Part shown: positions 10,254-25,310 of the stretch, one piece after another
Layout of the letters: each line of letters starts with the position of its first letter
Numbering within the stretch: the stretch's first letter is position 1
From: a virus
Virus record (IMG/VR): IMGVR_UViG_3300011116_000837
Coordinates: 1-25,310 of that record
Length of the DNA stretch: 25,310 nt
Reading direction: 5' to 3' (one strand)
Made by a program: the position numbers and the translations under genes
The notes under the pieces: generated by a model
What the model was told of the DNA's origin: nothing
The model's database searches: none
Seen by the model: only the letters and a program-made list of their open reading frames with translations

Positions 10254-11111
10254 TCAACTAACCAGTTGTTTTAACCTTACCTCTTTAACTGCATCTCTAA
10301 GATCATCCTTTGTAGGATGGTTGTATCTCTGTGTCATCCTGATGTCCTTATGTCCGACAACTTTCTGAACAACGTCGATACCTACCTTTCTTCTTAGAAG
10401 TCTTGTTATAAAGGTATGTCTTAACGAGTGTATTACAAAATCTTTCTCGTCTTGCATACCCATAGCTTTCCTAATCTTCTTCCAAGTATTTTCTACTGAT
10501 GAAAGACTGTAAGGAAAAGGCCTTTCAAAACCTCTTTGTTTTCGTTTATTCAAGATGTCTTTAACTTTATCAAAAATAGGAACGTATCTGTTGTCTCCAT
10601 TTTTAGTATCGTTAAAATAAACGAAACTTTCGTCTATATCTTCCCATTTGGCATTAAGCCACTCAGAAAGTCTGCAACCTGTTTCAATTAAACAAATCCA
10701 CAAATCGCATTTATCCTTGTAACCTAGCATGTGTGATGTGGTAATTAATTTTCGTTCCATATCATCTGTAAAAACAAATTGTCTTTTATTGTTTTCACGT
10801 TCATACTCGATCATAGGCGTACCCCACTCAAATTGAAAACCTCTAACACCTTTAGAATAAGTTAATATTTTAGAAAGTGCTGCAAGTTTTCTATTTGTAG
10901 TGCCTTTAGTGTAAGAAAGTTTATCTTTACAATAAAATTTAAACTCCCTTACAGTTTCTGTAGAGACGTTGTTTACAGTTTGATCTATGCCAAACCATTT
11001 AGAAAAAACGTCTATATTCCTAAGACTATTTTTCCCATCTTTTTGACTAGACCATTCCATAATCCAAACTTTCTCTATTGCTTCTTTTAGAGTTACTTTA
11101 GTGTTGAGCAT
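10254..11111 (-). CDS. int: Tyrosine-recombinase integrase
   Basis: The 285-aa protein has an N-terminal SAM-like core-binding domain (about 1-105) and a C-terminal catalytic domain with the full active-site set: R147 (ETGCRLSE), K170 (DTKNG), H228 and R231 (HSLRHT), H254 (VVGHKD) and nucleophile Y263 (TQRYNHP). A longer frame begins at 11126, but AGGAGG sits six bases before the ATG at 11111, so that start is chosen. It should integrate the phage at the tRNA-Leu site whose core follows its stop. An integrase in a T7-like phage points to a temperate life cycle. No separate excisionase is recognised. Confidence 0.95.
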   Translation of the reverse strand: MLNTKVTLKEAIEKVWIMEWSSQKDGKNSLRNIDVFSKWFGIDQTVNNVSTETVREFKFYCKDKLSYTKGTTNRKLAALSKILTYSKGVRGFQFEWGTPMIEYERENNKRQFVFTDDMERKLITTSHMLGYKDKCDLWICLIETGCRLSEWLNAKWEDIDESFVYFNDTKNGDNRYVPIFDKVKDILNKRKQRGFERPFPYSLSSVENTWKKIRKAMGMQDEKDFVIHSLRHTFITRLLRRKVGIDVVQKVVGHKDIRMTQRYNHPTKDDLRDAVKEVRLKQLVS

Positions 11112-11132
11112 GGATTTCCTCCTCATTTAAGG

Positions 11133-12543: not shown

Positions 12544-13521
12544 ATGTGTGTAATAATTTGCGGAAATCCGAACAATATAAAAACGGAACAGTTAAAAAAT
12601 GCTTACGAGAAAAACCCTCACGGGTTTGGCTTAATGTATTTAAAAAATAAAAATATTGTTGCTGTTAAATATTTGCCAAAAAATTTTAAACAAGTTTTAA
12701 AAACTTTTGACAAGCATAAAAATAAAACAAATCAAATCGCAATACATTTTAGACTAGCAACAGTCGGTTATAAAAATAATTTTAATTGCCACCCTTTTTT
12801 CATCACTAATGAAAAATTATTTGGCGACACTTTCGACTGTGCTTTAATGCACAATAGCCCGTTAATACCCGCCCCTCTATTATCTGAAAAATATTCTGAT
12901 AGTTATTATTTTAGTAGATATATTTTAAGACCAATATTGAAAAATAAACCCGAATTAATTTTAAATCAAAGTTTTTTAAATGCTTTAGATAAAATAATAA
13001 ATGCGGAATGCGATACCCGAGTTTTATTATTAAATAATAAAAACAATTCATTTATTTTTCTTGGCGAGTGGCACGATTATAAAAATTTAAAAGTATCGAA
13101 TACTTATTCACTAGAAAATTATTTTGGAAATTCAATTTCTAGTGATGATTATTTTAATACACCATATAAAAGCGGTCATAAATATTTTAATGATGATGAC
13201 AGCGATTATAAATTCAAATCATATTCTAAAAAAGATTTAACAGAATTAAAAGAAAATGATGAAAAAATATTAGATCAAGTAAATCAAGATCAAATTAAAT
13301 TAGAGGAAAATCAAATTCAAATTGATGACACTAATTTAAATGATGAAAATAAATTATTTAAAAATGAAAGTAAATTAAATGGTGAGGAGATAAACCATTA
13401 TAATAATATTTTTTCAAATTCATCTTTTGAGGAAATTTATAAAGAAATTGAACATTTAACACCCGCAGAAATTGCGATTTTACTTTCTGAAATTCAAAAA
13501 AATAAAAAAGAGGTTGCTTAA
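12544..13521 (+). CDS. Class II glutamine amidotransferase-like Ntn hydrolase, 325 aa
   Basis: The protein begins MCVIICG, so removal of Met would expose Cys2 as the N-terminal nucleophile of a class II amidotransferase. Typical elements follow: NPHGFGLMY (24-32), the substrate-binding segment IHFRLATVG (67-75), NCHPF (81-85) and the MHNSPL turn (102-107). Such domains release ammonia from glutamine or cut amide bonds. Residues after about 215 form an Asp/Asn/Lys-rich, poorly ordered tail. The stop is followed at once by the amidoligase ATG (GCTTAAATG, with GAGG upstream), so the two are co-translated. Paired amidotransferase and amidoligase genes are known in comparative studies of phages and bacteria; the joint product is not known. 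Confidence 0.8.
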   Translation: MCVIICGNPNNIKTEQLKNAYEKNPHGFGLMYLKNKNIVAVKYLPKNFKQVLKTFDKHKNKTNQIAIHFRLATVGYKNNFNCHPFFITNEKLFGDTFDCALMHNSPLIPAPLLSEKYSDSYYFSRYILRPILKNKPELILNQSFLNALDKIINAECDTRVLLLNNKNNSFIFLGEWHDYKNLKVSNTYSLENYFGNSISSDDYFNTPYKSGHKYFNDDDSDYKFKSYSKKDLTELKENDEKILDQVNQDQIKLEENQIQIDDTNLNDENKLFKNESKLNGEEINHYNNIFSNSSFEEIYKEIEHLTPAEIAILLSEIQKNKKEVA

Positions 13522-15477
13522 ATGATTGATATTAATTTAGAAAAATATTCAAATTTAATTTTAGATAAACAACTTATTTCGGTTTTAAGGTGGTTTAAAA
13601 ATAATAAAGTTTATTCTTTTGTAGATAATTTCAATAACATTTTTGATACAAGTTTAATCCGTGAATTTAGGTATCACAAACCACTTTTTGAAAGTTTTAA
13701 AAAAAATAGATTAATTGAAAATTTTTCAGTCACTACAAATGAAAATTGTGAAACTATACCAAGCGGGAAAACTGATTTAAAATTTTTAGTTCAAATCGAA
13801 CATTTTTTAAATGCAATAATATTAAAAAGTTTTTACAGAAAAAATACAACTTGTAATGACGGCGGTTTAATACCTAGCCCAATTCACGATAAATATAAAA
13901 ATGATTTTAAATTAGAAAGAACAGTTTTAAGAAATAATTATTATTGGCATTTTAAAGATTTAAATTTATTTGAAACTTATTATTTATCGAGATTTAAGTT
14001 CAAAAATGTAATTTTAAATTTAATTGATAACGAATTAAATGACTATCGTTATAATTTTGAAAAATTACAATCATTTATAAATATATTAAATGATCTAAGA
14101 AATTTATTAAAAGATTTAAATATTAATTTAGATAAATTAGCGATTAACCAAGACGCATTAACGGGCTTATATTGCCATAAAAGTTTACTATCATCTTTTT
14201 ATAAAAACATTGAAAAAAGAGAGTTAAAAGAAATTATTTGCAATCATCATCATTTAAAAATTTTAGCAAGTCAAATTGATAACAATTATAATTTTGATTG
14301 TGATAAATATATTTTAAAGCCGTTTGTAATTAATTTTAAAAATATTAATAACAGTCAACTTTCATTAAATCGCCATGCTTATATTTTAAGTCGGTACAAC
14401 AATTCGGGCGGATACGATAGCCCCGAATTTTATTTCATAGAAGAAATTAACACAGTAATAAATAAAAATGATAAAAAATTTATTGAATTTAATTTCATTA
14501 ATTTTAAAACTAATAATAATTGTCTTAGATCACGGGACGCAGATATTACACAAATGTTCCCGTTCGGTCGGTTATCTTTTGAAAGTTTAAATTCAACTTT
14601 TTTCGGGGTTGAATTGGAATGCTATGTTCGTGAAGATTATCTTGATGATAATAGAGGAAAATTGCCTTACAAATTACTAGAAGAAGAAATCCTTAGAGGA
14701 ACGGCAATTTGTAAAGAGGACGGAAGTTTAGGACAATACGGGGTTGAATTAAACACAGTTCCAATGACTTTAAACTATATTCAAAAAAATGATTATTTTT
14801 TAAAATTTTTTGAACAAACTAAAAAAATGTTAACTAGCTACGATCGAGAGGAAACGGGTATTCATATTCATATTAGTAGAAATAATTTATCAAGGGTTGA
14901 TATAATGAAAATCCAACAGTTTATAAACGATCAAGTTAATTTAAAATTTATTGTTAAAATGTCGGGTAGAAATCCAAATAGATATTGTCAAGTCAATGAC
15001 CGCTTAAAATTAAATCAATTTAAAAATAATTTATTTAGATCAGATGAAAAATTTTTAGCGGTTAATGTATCTCACAAAAATTCTATTGAATTAAGAATAT
15101 TTAAAGGAACAATAAACCCTATTACAATCCACCGACAAATTGAATTTTGTGCGGGGTTGGTGCAATTTGTAAAGAGTACCGCTTATAATCAACTATCATA
15201 TCAAGATTTTATTAAATTTATTCAAAGTTATAAAAATATATTCCCTTTATTAAATGAATTTAATTTAAAATTTATTGAAAATCCCGCTTTCAAAATTTCT
15301 GAATTAAAGGGGATTAAAACCTATACTAATAAATGTTTAAAACAAATTGAAAAAAGAAATATAACTTTAAAGCCCCCAGTATTTAAAATAATTAAAAACC
15401 ACGATTATAAATCGCCTAGAAAAACTAAATTAAAAACCGATCATTTTTTCACTAATGATGCAATCAACGAAAATTAA
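13522..15477 (+). CDS. Amidoligase (glutamine-synthetase-fold COOH-NH2 ligase), 651 aa
   Basis: The C-terminal half carries the amidoligase signature: FFGVELECYV (360-369) with E364 and E366, KEDGSLGQYGVEL (398-410), TGIHIHIS (445-452) and NSIELRIFKGT (520-530). These match the metal- and ATP-binding strands of the amidoligase family, which joins a carboxyl group to an amine. The first 340 residues are a long Asn/Lys-rich helical region I do not recognise; it may select the substrate. The partner amidotransferase immediately upstream could supply ammonia or trim a peptide bond. Targets could be a peptide, a cell-wall peptide or a virion protein. AT-rich codons and the opposite strand set it apart from phage core genes. 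Confidence 0.82.
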   Translation: MIDINLEKYSNLILDKQLISVLRWFKNNKVYSFVDNFNNIFDTSLIREFRYHKPLFESFKKNRLIENFSVTTNENCETIPSGKTDLKFLVQIEHFLNAIILKSFYRKNTTCNDGGLIPSPIHDKYKNDFKLERTVLRNNYYWHFKDLNLFETYYLSRFKFKNVILNLIDNELNDYRYNFEKLQSFINILNDLRNLLKDLNINLDKLAINQDALTGLYCHKSLLSSFYKNIEKRELKEIICNHHHLKILASQIDNNYNFDCDKYILKPFVINFKNINNSQLSLNRHAYILSRYNNSGGYDSPEFYFIEEINTVINKNDKKFIEFNFINFKTNNNCLRSRDADITQMFPFGRLSFESLNSTFFGVELECYVREDYLDDNRGKLPYKLLEEEILRGTAICKEDGSLGQYGVELNTVPMTLNYIQKNDYFLKFFEQTKKMLTSYDREETGIHIHISRNNLSRVDIMKIQQFINDQVNLKFIVKMSGRNPNRYCQVNDRLKLNQFKNNLFRSDEKFLAVNVSHKNSIELRIFKGTINPITIHRQIEFCAGLVQFVKSTAYNQLSYQDFIKFIQSYKNIFPLLNEFNLKFIENPAFKISELKGIKTYTNKCLKQIEKRNITLKPPVFKIIKNHDYKSPRKTKLKTDHFFTNDAINEN

Positions 15478-19151: not shown

Positions 19152-19391
19152 TTAGTTAAATTGATCTTCCCCTATTATCTCCTTTAAATCGCTTAATTTA
19201 AAGGGTAATTCTTCGGCTAATTTCGATACTGTTCTATTTTCAGTACCAATACAGTCTATGTTGTTATCTTTTAAAAACTGCCTAGCTACATTGAGATCAG
19301 ATGCCTTAACTTCTGGATCTCTAAGTCTTTCTAGGAGTTTTTGTGCTAAAAGCTCGTGTAGATTTTCTAATTTGTTTTTTGGTTCTTGCAT
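19152..19391 (-). CDS. Probable small terminase subunit, 79 aa
   Basis: The protein is small and helical, with ASDLNVARQFLKDNNID (about 34-50), a pattern seen in small terminase (DNA maturase A) proteins of T7-like marine phages. T7 gp18 has 89 aa. It sits directly before the large terminase. The start overlaps the Cys/Lys-rich gene by 25 bases. A short hairpin (ACGCA...TGCGT, about 19131-19146) lies between its stop and terminase. Confidence 0.75.
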   Translation of the reverse strand: MQEPKNKLENLHELLAQKLLERLRDPEVKASDLNVARQFLKDNNIDCIGTENRTVSKLAEELPFKLSDLKEIIGEDQFN

Positions 19392-19507
19392 TTACATTCT
19401 TTACATTTACACTTAGGTTTACATTTACAGCTGTCTAACAGTGAGCAAAAGCCAGCCCACAATTTCCACACACAATAAAATCTTTCTTTTGCATTTTTGT
19501 ATTTCAT
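19367..19507 (-). CDS. Cys/Lys-rich small protein, 46 aa
   Basis: The ATG overlaps the stop of the 77-aa gene (ATATGA) and has GGAG seven bases upstream, which strongly supports translation. The C-terminal half is CKCKPKCKCKECKCK, alternating Cys and Lys, with eight Cys between residues 27 and 40. Such a tail could bind metal or form disulfides. The N-terminal half is aromatic (FYCVWKLWAGFC) and may touch the membrane. It sits among lysis/terminase genes; the function is unknown. Confidence 0.7.
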   Translation of the reverse strand: MKYKNAKERFYCVWKLWAGFCSLLDSCKCKPKCKCKECKCKNQKTN

Positions 19508-19737
19508 ATTTTTTCTCCAGTAATTTCTATACACTCCATAGTTACAATTTCTTGTAGTTTTATTTTGTCTTGGTATTGAAATTGTTTTTCTATGTCTAAA
19601 GAAATTGTTGAATAATTATTTTTTAAAAATTTTTCACAAGATTGTTTATTATTAAATGAAATATTCGGGTTATAAACAGGTAACATTTCACTGTATCCGT
19701 TACTAAAAAATGATAACCAAATAATTATATAATACAT
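19504..19737 (-). CDS. Exported or membrane-anchored small protein, 77 aa
   Basis: The N-terminus MYYIIIWLSFFSNGYS looks like a signal peptide or membrane anchor without a strong positive start. The rest is soluble with two Cys (about 34 and 69), suitable for a disulfide outside the cytoplasm. Its position between holin-like and terminase genes could suit a spanin-like lysis protein, but no lipobox or coiled coil supports that strongly. Its end is coupled to the Cys/Lys-rich gene. Confidence 0.6.
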   Translation of the reverse strand: MYYIIIWLSFFSNGYSEMLPVYNPNISFNNKQSCEKFLKNNYSTISLDIEKQFQYQDKIKLQEIVTMECIEITGEKI

Positions 19738-21181: not shown

Positions 21182-21751
21182 TTATTCAGGTTTAAATTGG
21201 TTAAAGTCTTTATGATAAAAGTTTAAAGCTACACTTATTCTCTCATCATCAGACATATTAGGTTCAACTGAATGAACTATGTAAGCAGGAAATAGAATTA
21301 AATCGCCAATTTTAGGGGTTATTCTGTAATAACTTCTACCACTTACTAAATGACCTTGTGTATTTATTTCAAATTTTTCAATAAAAGACATCGCACCTCT
21401 AGGGTCGTGTAATAATAAATCACCACATTTATCAGAAGTTTTTACATAATAAACTCCAACAACAGTATTAGTATTGTGATGATGAGGAGTATTAAAACCA
21501 AACTTTTTTGTTATTGTAGTCCAACTTTTAGTTATAAATAACTCTACTGTTTTATTATTATTTAATTCTTTTAAATATAATTCGGCTTCATCTATAAATA
21601 TTTTATTTAGTTCAATAGCTTCTTCTATTGGAAGATTATCAGTTAAGTTATTTTTAAAACCTAACTTCATACATTTACCAATTTTTCTTCCTAATTCTTC
21701 AAAATTAGGCATTGATATAATTTTAATTGGTGTACTAAATAAATTTATCAT
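21182..21751 (-). CDS. Putative 2OG-Fe(II) oxygenase, 189 aa
   Basis: The double-stranded beta-helix signature of the phage 2OG-Fe(II) oxygenase family is clear: TPHHHNTNTVVGVYYV (88-103) gives the first iron ligands, DLLLHDPRGA follows (111-120), FPAYIVHSVEPN holds the distal His160, and ERISVALNF holds R171 for 2-oxoglutarate. Such enzymes hydroxylate proteins or small molecules. The first metal motif is His-rich rather than a plain HxD. The start lies directly after the SPASM gene stop (TAGTATG). As the last gene of the modification cassette it may act on the same target as its neighbours. Confidence 0.82.
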   Translation of the reverse strand: MINLFSTPIKIISMPNFEELGRKIGKCMKLGFKNNLTDNLPIEEAIELNKIFIDEAELYLKELNNNKTVELFITKSWTTITKKFGFNTPHHHNTNTVVGVYYVKTSDKCGDLLLHDPRGAMSFIEKFEINTQGHLVSGRSYYRITPKIGDLILFPAYIVHSVEPNMSDDERISVALNFYHKDFNQFKPE

Positions 21752-21752
21752 A

Positions 21753-23204
21753 CTAATAATTCATTACTGTTTCAGGTTTTTTCATTAACCTATCTATGAA
21801 ATCTTGAGAAATAATTTCAATTTTGTCGTGCATATTATCTCGTCTTGGAGTTCCTTCTATGTAACGTAATACTCCGCCTGTAAGTCTGTATAATGCAGAA
21901 GCTAACATAGCTACGTTGTAATTGTATGAAACATCACAGGCTTTAGTCCAATATTCATTTTCTAAAAATAAACACGCACCTTTACAAAGTTGAACTACAG
22001 GACATCTCACACATTCACTTCTAGTTCTAAAGTGATGAACTAAAGTCATTTCAATAGCTTTAATATCTTTATAAGTTCCTGTGTTATGTCTTGGAAGATT
22101 TGCATTAACATTCTGACAAGTCATTGTGTTGCCTTTTAAATCTACTGCAAGAATTTCAGGATTATCCATTCCGCACTTTTGACCAAATACTGTAAATGGT
22201 CTTTGTGTTTTTATAGAGTTAAAAAAATCATCTAGTTTTTGAAAAACTGTAGATACACTTAAAGTAGAACCAAAAGCCGCTTCTTCAAATAAAACTTCTT
22301 TCATTTCTTTTTGTTCTTCAGGAAGTGTTGGAGATAACATCATTCCACCAGCATCGTAAGGAAGCATTATTTCTTCTGTTGTCAGAGGAATGTCGAATGG
22401 TTGTAATCCCATTTTTTCTGCTATGTATTCTCTAACTTTATGTAATGAATAATTCTTAACTGTAAGAACACAGTTAAAACCTATTCTGCCTTTAGGAAAT
22501 AAAATTTTGTAAGCATATTTAACTGCTTCTAAAGTTTTAGGTACAGTAAGAATATCCTCTCCCCTTTGGTCTCTATAAACTGCACCATCGTGAGATATAC
22601 CTACTTGAAAATCTAAACTATCTAACCAATCAACAATCTCAGGAGTAAGCATTGATGCGTTAGTGATGATATTAAATTCAGCTTTAGGAAATTTCTTCCT
22701 TAATCCTTCTGCCAATACTTTTAATACTTTTATATAAACTAATGGTTCTCCACCCCAAAATTCCCAACGAGTATTATTACCATCTCCTTTAAACCAAGTA
22801 TCTAATTCATCTAAAAACTTTTGTGCTTCAGCAGGATTTCCTTGAAATGAATTTGGTACAAATTGAGCTTGGTTACAATAACTACAAGAGTAATTACATT
22901 TTAAACCCATCTGAATTTTTACATTGTTTGGCTTATCAGATTTTTTTGCAGGGTTACTTGGGGAGTTAGGTGTCCACTCGTGAAAGTGTCCCTTAGTATA
23001 TTCCATATTTATACTCTCTAACGATACAGGTATTCCATTTTCTGTAAGTTCAGAAGTATGCGGTTTATACATTAAATATCTCCAACCCTTTGGGTACTGA
23101 AGATGTAATTTGTATTCTGGTGGATTACTGGTATCGTAAGTTTTAATTATCTCTGGTTCTTTTTTCTTCCAAGAAGCAAAGTTATACTCTTTTGAGTTAC
23201 TCAT
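21753..23204 (-). CDS. Radical SAM/SPASM peptide-maturase-like enzyme, 483 aa
   Basis: The radical SAM cluster motif is CNYSCSYC (C103, C107, C110), with FWGGEP (149-154) for SAM binding. The C-terminal part has the full seven-Cys SPASM pattern: C344-x13-G-x4-C363, then C398-x2-C401-x5-C407-x3-C411, then C423, which binds two more iron-sulfur clusters. SPASM enzymes usually modify peptides or proteins (sactipeptide, ranthipeptide and sulfatase maturases). The first 90 residues are an extra domain that could recognise a substrate. It lies between two 2OG oxygenases, in the late-gene string with two virion-type proteins upstream. No ribosome site is obvious at the ATG. The reaction is not known. 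Confidence 0.9.
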   Translation of the reverse strand: MSNSKEYNFASWKKKEPEIIKTYDTSNPPEYKLHLQYPKGWRYLMYKPHTSELTENGIPVSLESINMEYTKGHFHEWTPNSPSNPAKKSDKPNNVKIQMGLKCNYSCSYCNQAQFVPNSFQGNPAEAQKFLDELDTWFKGDGNNTRWEFWGGEPLVYIKVLKVLAEGLRKKFPKAEFNIITNASMLTPEIVDWLDSLDFQVGISHDGAVYRDQRGEDILTVPKTLEAVKYAYKILFPKGRIGFNCVLTVKNYSLHKVREYIAEKMGLQPFDIPLTTEEIMLPYDAGGMMLSPTLPEEQKEMKEVLFEEAAFGSTLSVSTVFQKLDDFFNSIKTQRPFTVFGQKCGMDNPEILAVDLKGNTMTCQNVNANLPRHNTGTYKDIKAIEMTLVHHFRTRSECVRCPVVQLCKGACLFLENEYWTKACDVSYNYNVAMLASALYRLTGGVLRYIEGTPRRDNMHDKIEIISQDFIDRLMKKPETVMNY

Positions 23205-23223
23205 ATATGCTTTTAGTTAGGGG

Positions 23224-24069
23224 TTAGTTAAAACTTAATAGATTTTGTTTTGCTAAATCGTATGGGTGTGTTTTTCCATAATGATGATTTAGTGAATAAG
23301 AATTACTTGTTGTGTCGTAATTTAACCAAGTAGCTAAATTAATAATTAAACTTGTTCTTTGAAAATTAGATTTTTCACTTACAAAAGTTCTATGTAATTT
23401 ATCTGTATTAACTACTAAATTATCTCCCCTTTTCGTACAAATAACCTTTTTATTTTGATATTCAATTCCGTGATTACCTTCAGTATCAATCATTACATTA
23501 ATTCTTAATGCTTCGAAGGGACAATCGTCTGTATGCCAACCACCATTTGTTATTTGAGTTGGGTATACTAATAAGCCATTTACTGTTCTTGATGTAACTC
23601 TAATGACAGGAAAATTAAAACTATTTAGTAATTTATAAAGATGCGGTTTAGTTTTAACTTCAGGAAGTAAAGTATTAAATGAAAGACTATCTAAATAATC
23701 ATCTTTTAAATGATGTTCTTTATCATTCATTACTGCTTCGTAATAATCGTACGAACTATAAACTTTATATCTAGGGTGTCCAAAACAACCACGTTTCCAA
23801 TTATCTTTTGAATGATTAGGATTATAAGTTAAACTTAATCCATAAAGACCAACACTATTTTGTGATTGCCAAGTAACAGCACCAACAGATTTATATAAAC
23901 TTAAAAGTTCTTCTAAAACTTTATCTGCATCAAATTTAAGATTAATTCTTAAATCTAAATCTGCGTCATCATCTCTTTTAAGAGAATTAACAGCTTGTTC
24001 CCAATCTGTTTTTGATTTTATGTAATTATAAAATGTTTGATTATTTGGTACGTCTTTATGCCTGAACAT
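23224..24069 (-). CDS. 2OG-Fe(II) oxygenase-like protein, 281 aa
   Basis: The C-terminal half has the cupin-type iron motif GGWHTDDCPFEALRINVMID (H179 and D181), then KLHRTF (H226) and FQRTSLIIN (R238), the HxD...H...R set of 2-oxoglutarate dioxygenases. The N-terminal 150 residues include a region of unknown role (YGLSLTYNP, GHPRYKVYSS). The frame is open to a TTG at 24105, but ATG 24069 overlaps the stop of the 246-aa gene by 14 bases and is chosen. It is followed by the SPASM enzyme, so the two are likely co-expressed. Protein hydroxylation is likely, its target unproven. Confidence 0.8.
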   Translation of the reverse strand: MFRHKDVPNNQTFYNYIKSKTDWEQAVNSLKRDDDADLDLRINLKFDADKVLEELLSLYKSVGAVTWQSQNSVGLYGLSLTYNPNHSKDNWKRGCFGHPRYKVYSSYDYYEAVMNDKEHHLKDDYLDSLSFNTLLPEVKTKPHLYKLLNSFNFPVIRVTSRTVNGLLVYPTQITNGGWHTDDCPFEALRINVMIDTEGNHGIEYQNKKVICTKRGDNLVVNTDKLHRTFVSEKSNFQRTSLIINLATWLNYDTTSNSYSLNHHYGKTHPYDLAKQNLLSFN

Positions 24070-24796
24070 CTGCTGAAACAACGTTAGAAACATACTTAAA
24101 GCCAAATTCAGCTTTCATACTTTCTCCCTGTTCCAAGCCATAAGGTATTACTTTAAATTCAGCAGTACCATTAGCATCAGTATAAACTTCTCTATTAGCA
24201 ATATAACCACTTGCTGATTTAGCAAATACTCGTATATCTGCTTTAGATAAATCGCTACCACCTAAAGTTAATTGAACTTTTATTTTAGTCCATTCCCCAG
24301 ATTTGGAAGTATTAATTACTTCTAATCTTGGAGAATTAGCATAATAAAATTCTTTAAATGCTTCTTCAGTATTTGCAACTCTAATAGCATCGGGTACTAA
24401 TTCTAATAGTTTAGCAACATCTTCTTCTTTAATATTTAATCTAATTACATATTCATCTTCAGAACTATCTTTAAATGGTATGTAAATTTGAGCAATTAAA
24501 TTAGGAATATTATATTTAATAAATTCCATTCCACCCATTTTTGTTGGATAGGTTTCAACCATTTTAAAAATTGGTTTAGATAAATTATTATTATTATCTA
24601 AATTTATATAAATATTATTACCTTCTGAAATTAATCGTGTAGGATTGTCTAAAATTTTATCAACATTAGATTTACTAAAACCTAAAGAAGAATTTTCTCC
24701 AATCTCATCATTCCATTTAGCAAAAACAACGTTATTGTCGTCTTTAATAAATTTAACATTTTTTGAATTTGGATTTATTGTATAAGCTATTTTCAT
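24056..24796 (-). CDS. Probable virion protein with Ig-like C-terminus, 246 aa
   Basis: The last 75 residues (ADIRVFAKSASG, VYTDANGTAEFKV, MKAEFGFKY) look like a bacterial Ig-like beta-sandwich, common on phage tails and capsids. The first 100 residues are beta-rich with an Asn/Asp loop, and the middle (KEEDVAKLLELVPDAI) is helical. AGGAT precedes the ATG. It sits between the Cys-tailed protein and the first oxygenase and could be a structural partner or a target. The family is not recognised; assignment is by fold impression. Confidence 0.55.
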   Translation of the reverse strand: MKIAYTINPNSKNVKFIKDDNNVVFAKWNDEIGENSSLGFSKSNVDKILDNPTRLISEGNNIYINLDNNNNLSKPIFKMVETYPTKMGGMEFIKYNIPNLIAQIYIPFKDSSEDEYVIRLNIKEEDVAKLLELVPDAIRVANTEEAFKEFYYANSPRLEVINTSKSGEWTKIKVQLTLGGSDLSKADIRVFAKSASGYIANREVYTDANGTAEFKVIPYGLEQGESMKAEFGFKYVSNVVSADVQA

Positions 24797-24808
24797 TTTT
24801 TTATCCTA

Positions 24809-25310
24809 TTACCCGTTACCACCGCCACCACAATCACACTGACACGCACACGCACAATTACAGTTACAGTTTGTTCTACAGTTGAAACTTCCGCAATTAC
24901 AGTTTTGAACTGTTCTTGATTGATAAGTTCCGCCTAATTCATCGGTATTAGACCAACCGCTAAATATGTTCTCAACAGTTACAGGTTGGAATGAAGATGA
25001 ATAACCACCAGCACCATCATAAGCACCATTGTTGGCACAATTTGATGTTGGTACTCCTGTAAATCCCCAACCAGACCATTCCCACCAATTTCCGTTTCGT
25101 GGCTTTTTTAAATCCATTGAATAGTTTACGTTTTGACCACTTGGATTTTCATACGTATTTGTTGTGTTGTAAGTTGGGTCTTTATCTAATGGGTTTGTTA
25201 CACCAGAAGCATTTGAAATTAAACCTGCGTAAGGTGTTCCTGTATTAATTAATGTTGCACTTGTTGTTGCTCTATCTAAAGCATCAATAGGAGTTCCGTC
25301 AGCTTTAACC
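24809..25310 (-). CDS. Virion-type protein with alternating-Cys tail (partial, N-terminus outside window)
   Basis: The frame is open from the right edge, so at least 167 residues are coded; the in-frame ATG at 25117 is internal, with continuous coding sequence upstream (for example LDRATTSATLINTGTPYAGL). The visible part is rich in Gly, Asn, Thr and Trp (GNWWEWSGWGFTG), like tail or capsid proteins. It ends with CNCG...CRTNCNCNCACACQCDC followed by GGGGNG: ten Cys in the last 31 residues, seven of them alternating. This is like the core of Cys-rich modified peptides, and a SPASM enzyme and two oxygenases follow in the same operon. The virion role is inferred from composition and place. Confidence 0.7.
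   Translation of the reverse strand, partial: VKADGTPIDALDRATTSATLINTGTPYAGLISNASGVTNPLDKDPTYNTTNTYENPSGQNVNYSMDLKKPRNGNWWEWSGWGFTGVPTSNCANNGAYDGAGGYSSSFQPVTVENIFSGWSNTDELGGTYQSRTVQNCNCGSFNCRTNCNCNCACACQCDCGGGGNG

Follow-up and report, generated by a model that had tools for sequence, protein, structure and literature searches.

We analyzed a 25,310-base virus fragment from IMG/VR (record IMGVR_UViG_3300011116_000837, hereafter the window), and found at its right edge a five-gene cassette encoding a tail-type protein that ends in Asn-Cys (NC) units and a radical S-adenosylmethionine (SAM) enzyme with a SPASM domain. The fragment belongs to a T7-like phage, as assigned from the presence of a T7-type RNA polymerase, a family A DNA polymerase and a T7-type terminase. 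The five genes all lie on the minus strand (21182-25310) and are transcribed inward from the right edge (25310 to 21182). In the order of transcription, the features are:

24809-25310, minus strand: tail-type (tail-tip or short fiber) protein, the proposed substrate, C-terminal 166 aa; open reading frame (ORF) with its 5' end cut by the window edge
24812..24904, minus strand: NC-repeat tail NCNCGSFNCRTNCNCNCACACQCDCGGGGNG, the proposed modified region; NC units conserved family-wide
24056-24796, minus strand: immunoglobulin (Ig)-like companion protein, 246 aa, cluster CL0; AlphaFold2 (AF2) model with an intimin/invasin-like C-terminal Ig domain
23224-24069, minus strand: candidate 2-oxoglutarate (2OG)/Fe(II) oxygenase, ~281 aa; HxD...H...R motif
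21753-23204, minus strand: radical SAM/SPASM peptide-maturase-type enzyme, 483 aa, phrog_1802; Pfam match, Cys motifs and AF2 model
21182-21751, minus strand: 2OG-Fe(II) oxygenase of the TIGR02466/PF13759 family, 189 aa; profile scores above cut-off

Proteins of the cassette

The tail protein has 10 Cys within its 31 C-terminal residues, and no Pfam or PHROG match of its own. Its full-length relatives are ~198 aa long, compared with the 166 aa present in the window. In locus L034, the full-length gene (198 aa) is directly downstream of a T7 gp17-type tail fiber gene (PF03906) and large virion genes, and therefore occupies a tail-fiber position. S74-type fiber genes are found upstream in several loci. 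Gene position and fused fiber or collagen domains, on which placement in the virion rests, lead us to consider with moderate confidence that the NC-tail protein is a tail component located in the particle.

The radical SAM enzyme scored 38 bits against Pfam Radical_SAM (cut-off 29.5). The CX3CX2C core (C103, C107 and C110) is invariant in 62/62 aligned family members. The seven SPASM Cys (C344, C363, C398, C401, C407, C411 and C423), together with G358, are present in all of the 61-62 aligned members with a residue there, and conform to the pattern CX9-15GX4C-CX2CX5CX3C-C; the score against the generic SPASM hidden Markov model (HMM) TIGR04085 is slightly below the cut-off (24.4 vs 27). Beyond these three radical SAM and seven SPASM Cys, the aligned members contain no conserved Cys (C245 is present in only 14/62), so that auxiliary cluster I (AuxI) would have only three Cys ligands, all from the SPASM motif. 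We take this to be the ligand set of CteB, and not the four-Cys set of the anaerobic sulfatase-maturating enzyme (anSME). The invariant D347 could serve as a further AuxI ligand. The AF2 model (predicted local distance difference test score, pLDDT, 92.5) shows a partial TIM barrel plus a SPASM fold, with CteB as the closest structure (5why, Z 23.2, 350 residues, 4.2 Å), followed by ChlB (Z 20.3), anSME (Z 19.0-19.7) and TigE, and with EpeE-type epimerases at Z ~15.

The AF2 model of the Ig-like companion has a mean pLDDT of 84, with residues 155-246 mostly above 95. This C-terminal domain is Ig-like: intimin (1f00) and the neck of phage Chi (8vhx) both matched it with a VIA Z of 10.8, over 86-93 aligned residues and at 2.4-3.2 Å. 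Foldseek comparison of the companion with the PDB gave no match at E ≤ 0.001, and the N-terminal 150 residues gave no clear structural match, in rows dominated by the Ig domain. The companion is the most frequent partner gene, present in 63 of about 88 loci, and may be a chaperone, an adaptor or a co-located tail component.

The oxygenase encoded at 21182-21751 scored 84.1 bits against PF13759 (cut-off 27) and 80.1 bits against TIGR02466 (cut-off 62.5), and has homologs in 37 cassettes. The protein encoded at 23224-24069 had no Pfam or PDB-sequence match. It contains the HxD...H...R motif, corresponding to the facial triad plus the 2OG-binding Arg (H179, D181, H226 and R238, invariant in 7 homologs), and judged on this motif it is likely to be a 2OG oxygenase. 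Of its two candidate starts, the ATG at 24069 and the TTG at 24105, the former is more likely. Members of its family are present in 7 loci of the set, a minority of the cassettes. The profiles of the two oxygenases do not match, leaving their assignment to one family unsupported.

An earlier, model-made annotation of the window (hereafter the sequence-only reading) had proposed a co-directional string of five genes including the Cys-tailed protein, a complete seven-Cys SPASM signature, an Ig-like protein and two 2OG oxygenases. The gene string, the SPASM Cys, the Ig-like domain and the oxygenase at 21182-21751 are borne out by the results above; for the oxygenase at 23224-24069 the motif holds, and profile support is lacking.

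Pairing of the NC tail with the radical SAM enzyme

To define how often the two proteins occur together, relatives of the radical SAM enzyme were gathered from two sources: viral contigs, with at least 549 matching stretches in IMG/VR, and bacterial genomes, with 102 matches. The loci were reduced to 80% identity, and those with at least 4.5 kb of upstream DNA were kept (n = 81). To count as an NC-tail protein, a protein encoded within 6.5 kb upstream of the radical SAM gene had to have a cluster of three or more Cys with two NC units among them. By this definition, an NC-tail protein is encoded upstream in 72/81 non-redundant loci. Three of the nine others have variant tails by inspection: L092 (ACDCACACDCACNC), L197 (NCMSYCSYCSYCSYC...) and L229, in which an NC tail is followed by a Hint-type extension.

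For the reverse direction, viral contigs were scanned with a 24-base degenerate DNA pattern for NCNCNCxC, which is blind to the enzyme. The radical SAM family is encoded at 37/37 in-frame matches with at least 3 kb of downstream DNA. Another 14 matches had no in-frame ORF reaching 60 aa; the enzyme was found at only one of these, located at a contig edge. As a control within the same loci, NC C-termini were found in 215/2312 ORFs just upstream of the radical SAM gene vs 2/8958 other ORFs. On the two-way co-occurrence and this within-locus control we reject chance or synteny, and the pairing of tail protein and radical SAM enzyme is strongly supported. Whether the SPASM gene often occurs without a Cys-tail gene was a check set beforehand with the sequence-only reading; run both ways, it did not refute the pairing.

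The NC unit was also examined across the family. Asn precedes 672/944 Cys (71%) in the NC-tail proteins, and makes up 8.9% of their residues overall. Isolated Cys, which are a fairer sample because the loci were chosen on NC runs, are preceded by Asn in 233/301 cases (77%). The first Cys of each run has Asn at position -1 in 93% and at position -3 in only 8%, and the residue between the Cys of CxC (n = 410) is Asn in 264, Ala in 69 and Asp in 51. An NxxC register (Asn at -3, as in NxxcA) was therefore rejected as the universal unit, and NC is the better-defined one, because of the preference at the first Cys together with that at isolated Cys.

The proposed substrates are tail-type proteins of roughly 67-726 aa; most are complete tail proteins, and short ones (67-133 aa) are found in some loci. 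When the tail-proximal 90 residues were grouped by single linkage (E < 1e-3), they formed ~12 families without detectable mutual similarity, some with collagen-like stems. The NC unit is thus the feature common to ~12 otherwise dissimilar families of tail proteins. In L279, L242, L131 and L142, the NC units are irregularly spaced through the C-terminal half of the protein. Loci L203, L274, L303 and L317 encode three short NC-tail proteins in a row; these tandem proteins (~92-110 aa) have related N-termini, and precede one companion and one radical SAM gene.

Variants of the cassette and its phages

The genes between the tail gene and the radical SAM gene vary from 0 to 10. None is present in 7 loci, the Ig-like companion alone in 18, the companion and a TIGR02466-like oxygenase in 13, and the companion and a member of the 23224-24069 family in 4, while larger sets contain further oxygenase-like and membrane desaturase-like genes. 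The minimal unit is the tail protein plus the radical SAM enzyme, and the oxygenases, which the sequence-only reading had counted as parts of the cassette, are modular, optional extras. In 7 loci, a second, different radical SAM gene is inserted between the companion and the main radical SAM gene (for example L060:11191-12213, L065 and L159). An elaborate cassette in L224 (3051-11662, minus strand) encodes a 79-aa protein ending in ACNCNCNCNCTRGIL. Several more genes lie in the ~7 kb that separate it from the family radical SAM enzyme, and one of them starts like another radical SAM enzyme. In L046 (11969-15360), membrane desaturase-like genes and other uncharacterized ORFs separate the NC-tail gene from the radical SAM gene.

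Phages with the cassette may be T7-like, lambda-like-tailed or contractile-tailed, and it is also found in prophage-like regions. In some loci it is accompanied by a T7-type terminase. Others have genes for a tape measure and J-type tail proteins (L048, L060, L104, L132 and L142) or for a contractile tail sheath (L279). The latter loci rule out a system confined to T7-like phages, the setting in which the sequence-only reading had framed it. Bacterial contigs with the cassette are mainly from alpha- and betaproteobacteria. Among 50,697 phage records, the only isolates with the pair are Achromobacter phages JWF and 2-1. JWF is a siphovirus grown on strain CCUG 48386, and was judged temperate by ultraviolet re-induction and turbid plaques (PMC3899368); a later comparison reported no identifiable lysogeny genes in JWF (PMC7996906). 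Radical SAM enzymes of Campylobacter phages were also considered, and were rejected as the same system (~28-33% identity over 23-32% of the query, in another context); in Campylobacter phage WX1, no annotated tail gene is directly upstream of the radical SAM gene.

A Hint/hedgehog-intein domain (PF05203, PF01079) follows directly on the NC tail in JWF, 2-1 and nine further lineages (11/88 radical SAM lineages), and the last tail Cys occupies the position of the Hint nucleophile. In JWF gp28, the domain directly behind the tail scored 47.5 bits against PF05203 (cut-off 32.1). On an IQ-TREE phylogeny of 88 radical SAM enzymes, the Hint state needs 8 changes, and at least 7 gains or losses are forced by well-supported branches. 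That Hint was fused repeatedly, and at one and the same position, suggests that freeing the tail C-terminus is important. No splicing extein partner was recognized for the Hint domains. The window phage has no Hint domain; in this phage, the comparison suggests that the stop codon does the job of Hint release.

Elsewhere in the window, a 55-aa ORF (19367-19534, minus strand) has the C-terminus CKCKPKCKCKECKCKNQKTN, with Lys-Cys instead of Asn-Cys units, and is kept in a close relative (L016/L040). At 12544-15477 on the plus strand, a glutamine-amidotransferase-like ORF without a Pfam match precedes an Amidoligase_2 protein (PF12224); the two are another candidate pair for modifying peptides or the wall, separate from the cassette. 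A tyrosine integrase (PF00589) is encoded at 10254-11126 on the minus strand of this T7-like genome.

Proposed modification of the tail tip and its alternatives

The ranthipeptide/SCIFF maturases (CteB, PapB and NxxcB) resemble the cassette enzyme in their radical SAM core and seven-Cys SPASM domain, and in the Cys-dense substrate gene beside the enzyme, and CteB is the best structural match. They differ in acting on short secreted peptides, whereas the proposed substrate here is the C-terminus of a tail-type protein from a phage. In addition, oxygenases and an Ig-like protein are found here instead of recognizable protease or exporter genes, and the scores are far below the HMM cut-offs of these families. 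QhpD (TIGR03906), the top NCBIfam profile (67 bits), is a SPASM enzyme whose thioethers are placed in the subunit of a protein and not in a natural-product peptide, but its substrate and context differ. The enzyme is of a known kind; what is new, within the literature searched, is the proposed use of a phage tail protein as its substrate, together with the NC unit and the fusion to Hint. The search covered open-licence literature and could have overlooked an article in a subscription journal; it yielded no description of radical SAM enzymes that modify tail proteins of phages, nor of an association of a radical SAM-linked tail with a Hint domain.

We propose that the cassette matures a virion protein, a reading that as a whole we consider likely. 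The radical SAM/SPASM enzyme would act on the C-terminal NC units of the tail-tip or short fiber protein, presumably in the infected cell during assembly; its catalysis on the NC-tail protein is highly probable. In the most likely chemistry, the Cys sulfur would be joined to a carbon of a nearby residue in a ranthipeptide/QhpD-like thioether. This is the best guess because of the CteB-like fold, the predicted three-Cys AuxI, the Cys-dense substrates and the kinship to QhpD, and we give it about an even chance against other Cys chemistry. QhpD forms Cys-Asp/Glu thioethers and NxxcB a Cys-Asn thioether (Cys23 to Asn20), both non-alpha (PMC8326336). Such bonds would lock the tip covalently, and make it resistant to proteases and insensitive to redox conditions. 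Hydroxylation of the same tip or a neighboring residue would fall to the TIGR02466-type oxygenase, and probably to the second one as well, and in some relatives the Hint domain would cut itself off behind the last unit, exposing the tip. The tip might conceivably serve adsorption or stability, through covalent locking, protection or receptor contact. That the phage modifies its own particle protein had already been put forward in the sequence-only reading, and the two-way pairing, the unrelated tail bodies and the isolate JWF support it, the exact chemistry and the role being inferred.

Several observations weigh against virion-protein maturation of this kind. The enzyme is far below the equivalog cut-offs of the known families (QhpD 67 vs 453, CcpM 58 vs 500, PapB 54 vs 340 and SCIFF maturase 27 vs 425). 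A canonical helical RiPP recognition element (PqqD-like winged helix) is not predicted in it: at its N-terminus, residues 31-56 are modelled as a small three-stranded sheet without the helices, although a reduced element may be present. A recognizable tail is absent upstream in 6/81 radical SAM loci. NC units are spaced variably, by 1-10 residues, and no single Cys/acceptor register fits, which argues against a single acceptor register; the NxxC register is attractive for NCNC, yet leaves conserved isolated NC units unexplained.

An anSME-like oxidase would convert tail Cys to formylglycine or another non-crosslinked product, whose aldehydes could react with amines of the host surface. The JWF enzyme is labelled 'anaerobic sulfatase-maturating enzyme' in GenBank, and anSME, which also acts on Cys of a protein, is among the closest structures (Z ~19.5). 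Yet CteB is the better match, the tails carry many Cys and no C/S-x-P/A-x-R sulfatase-type motif, no sulfatase is encoded nearby, and the extra AuxI Cys that anSME presumably carries ahead of the SPASM motif is missing here, making this activity improbable. The enzyme could alternatively modify Asn rather than Cys of the NC unit, for example by epimerization or formation of a carbon-carbon bond, with Cys as a hydrogen-donor partner or in a structural role. The nearly obligatory Asn before the first Cys of a run fits this idea, as does the shared fold of epimerases such as EpeE; however, the barrel has no conserved extra Cys of the kind that we take to be the hydrogen donor in EpeE-type enzymes, and the full SPASM domain and the fold are nearest to thioether formers. 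We regard Asn modification as very improbable.

The fiber tip of T4 gp37 has an iron-binding HxH repeat, with alternating ligand-type residues. The Cys tail could likewise be a metal- or Fe-S-binding needle, with the radical SAM enzyme acting elsewhere or only assisting: with alternating CxCxC, the Cys of an extended strand would all point to one side, as suits a trimeric metal ladder, and the tail-tip location agrees. Here, however, Cys replaces His and a radical SAM partner is obligatory, and a needle explains neither the near-obligate pairing with one radical SAM family nor the irregular NC units extending through half the protein in some loci; it is a decidedly unlikely explanation. Finally, the two genes might merely be neighbors by phage synteny, without mutual action. 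The lineage of the window is itself syntenic and most relatives are close kin, but tail gene and enzyme stay paired where the tail regions are unrelated and where phage type, gene order and number of intervening genes differ, and mere linkage is therefore extremely improbable.

Taken further, the proposed maturation could represent a new class of modification, defined by the Asn-Cys dipeptide and not by a fixed donor/acceptor register, on the virion tail tips of all three tail types. A phage-specific radical SAM/SPASM enzyme would install it, Hint would expose the C-terminus, and possibly a thioester would attach the tip covalently to something. We put this forward tentatively, as a possible but doubtful extension.

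Phages JWF and 2-1 are isolates suited to direct testing, JWF being the practical one; cultured Limnohabitans and Roseobacteraceae may be suited as well, through their prophage-like regions. If the proposed maturation is true, a large unexplored radical SAM family would gain a substrate signature and a biological setting, and would provide maturases for repeated Asn-Cys units with potential use in peptide cross-linking. Phages would then rely on the enzymology of peptide natural products to make infection tips that are chemically modified, and covalent radical chemistry would join the known features of phage adsorption devices.

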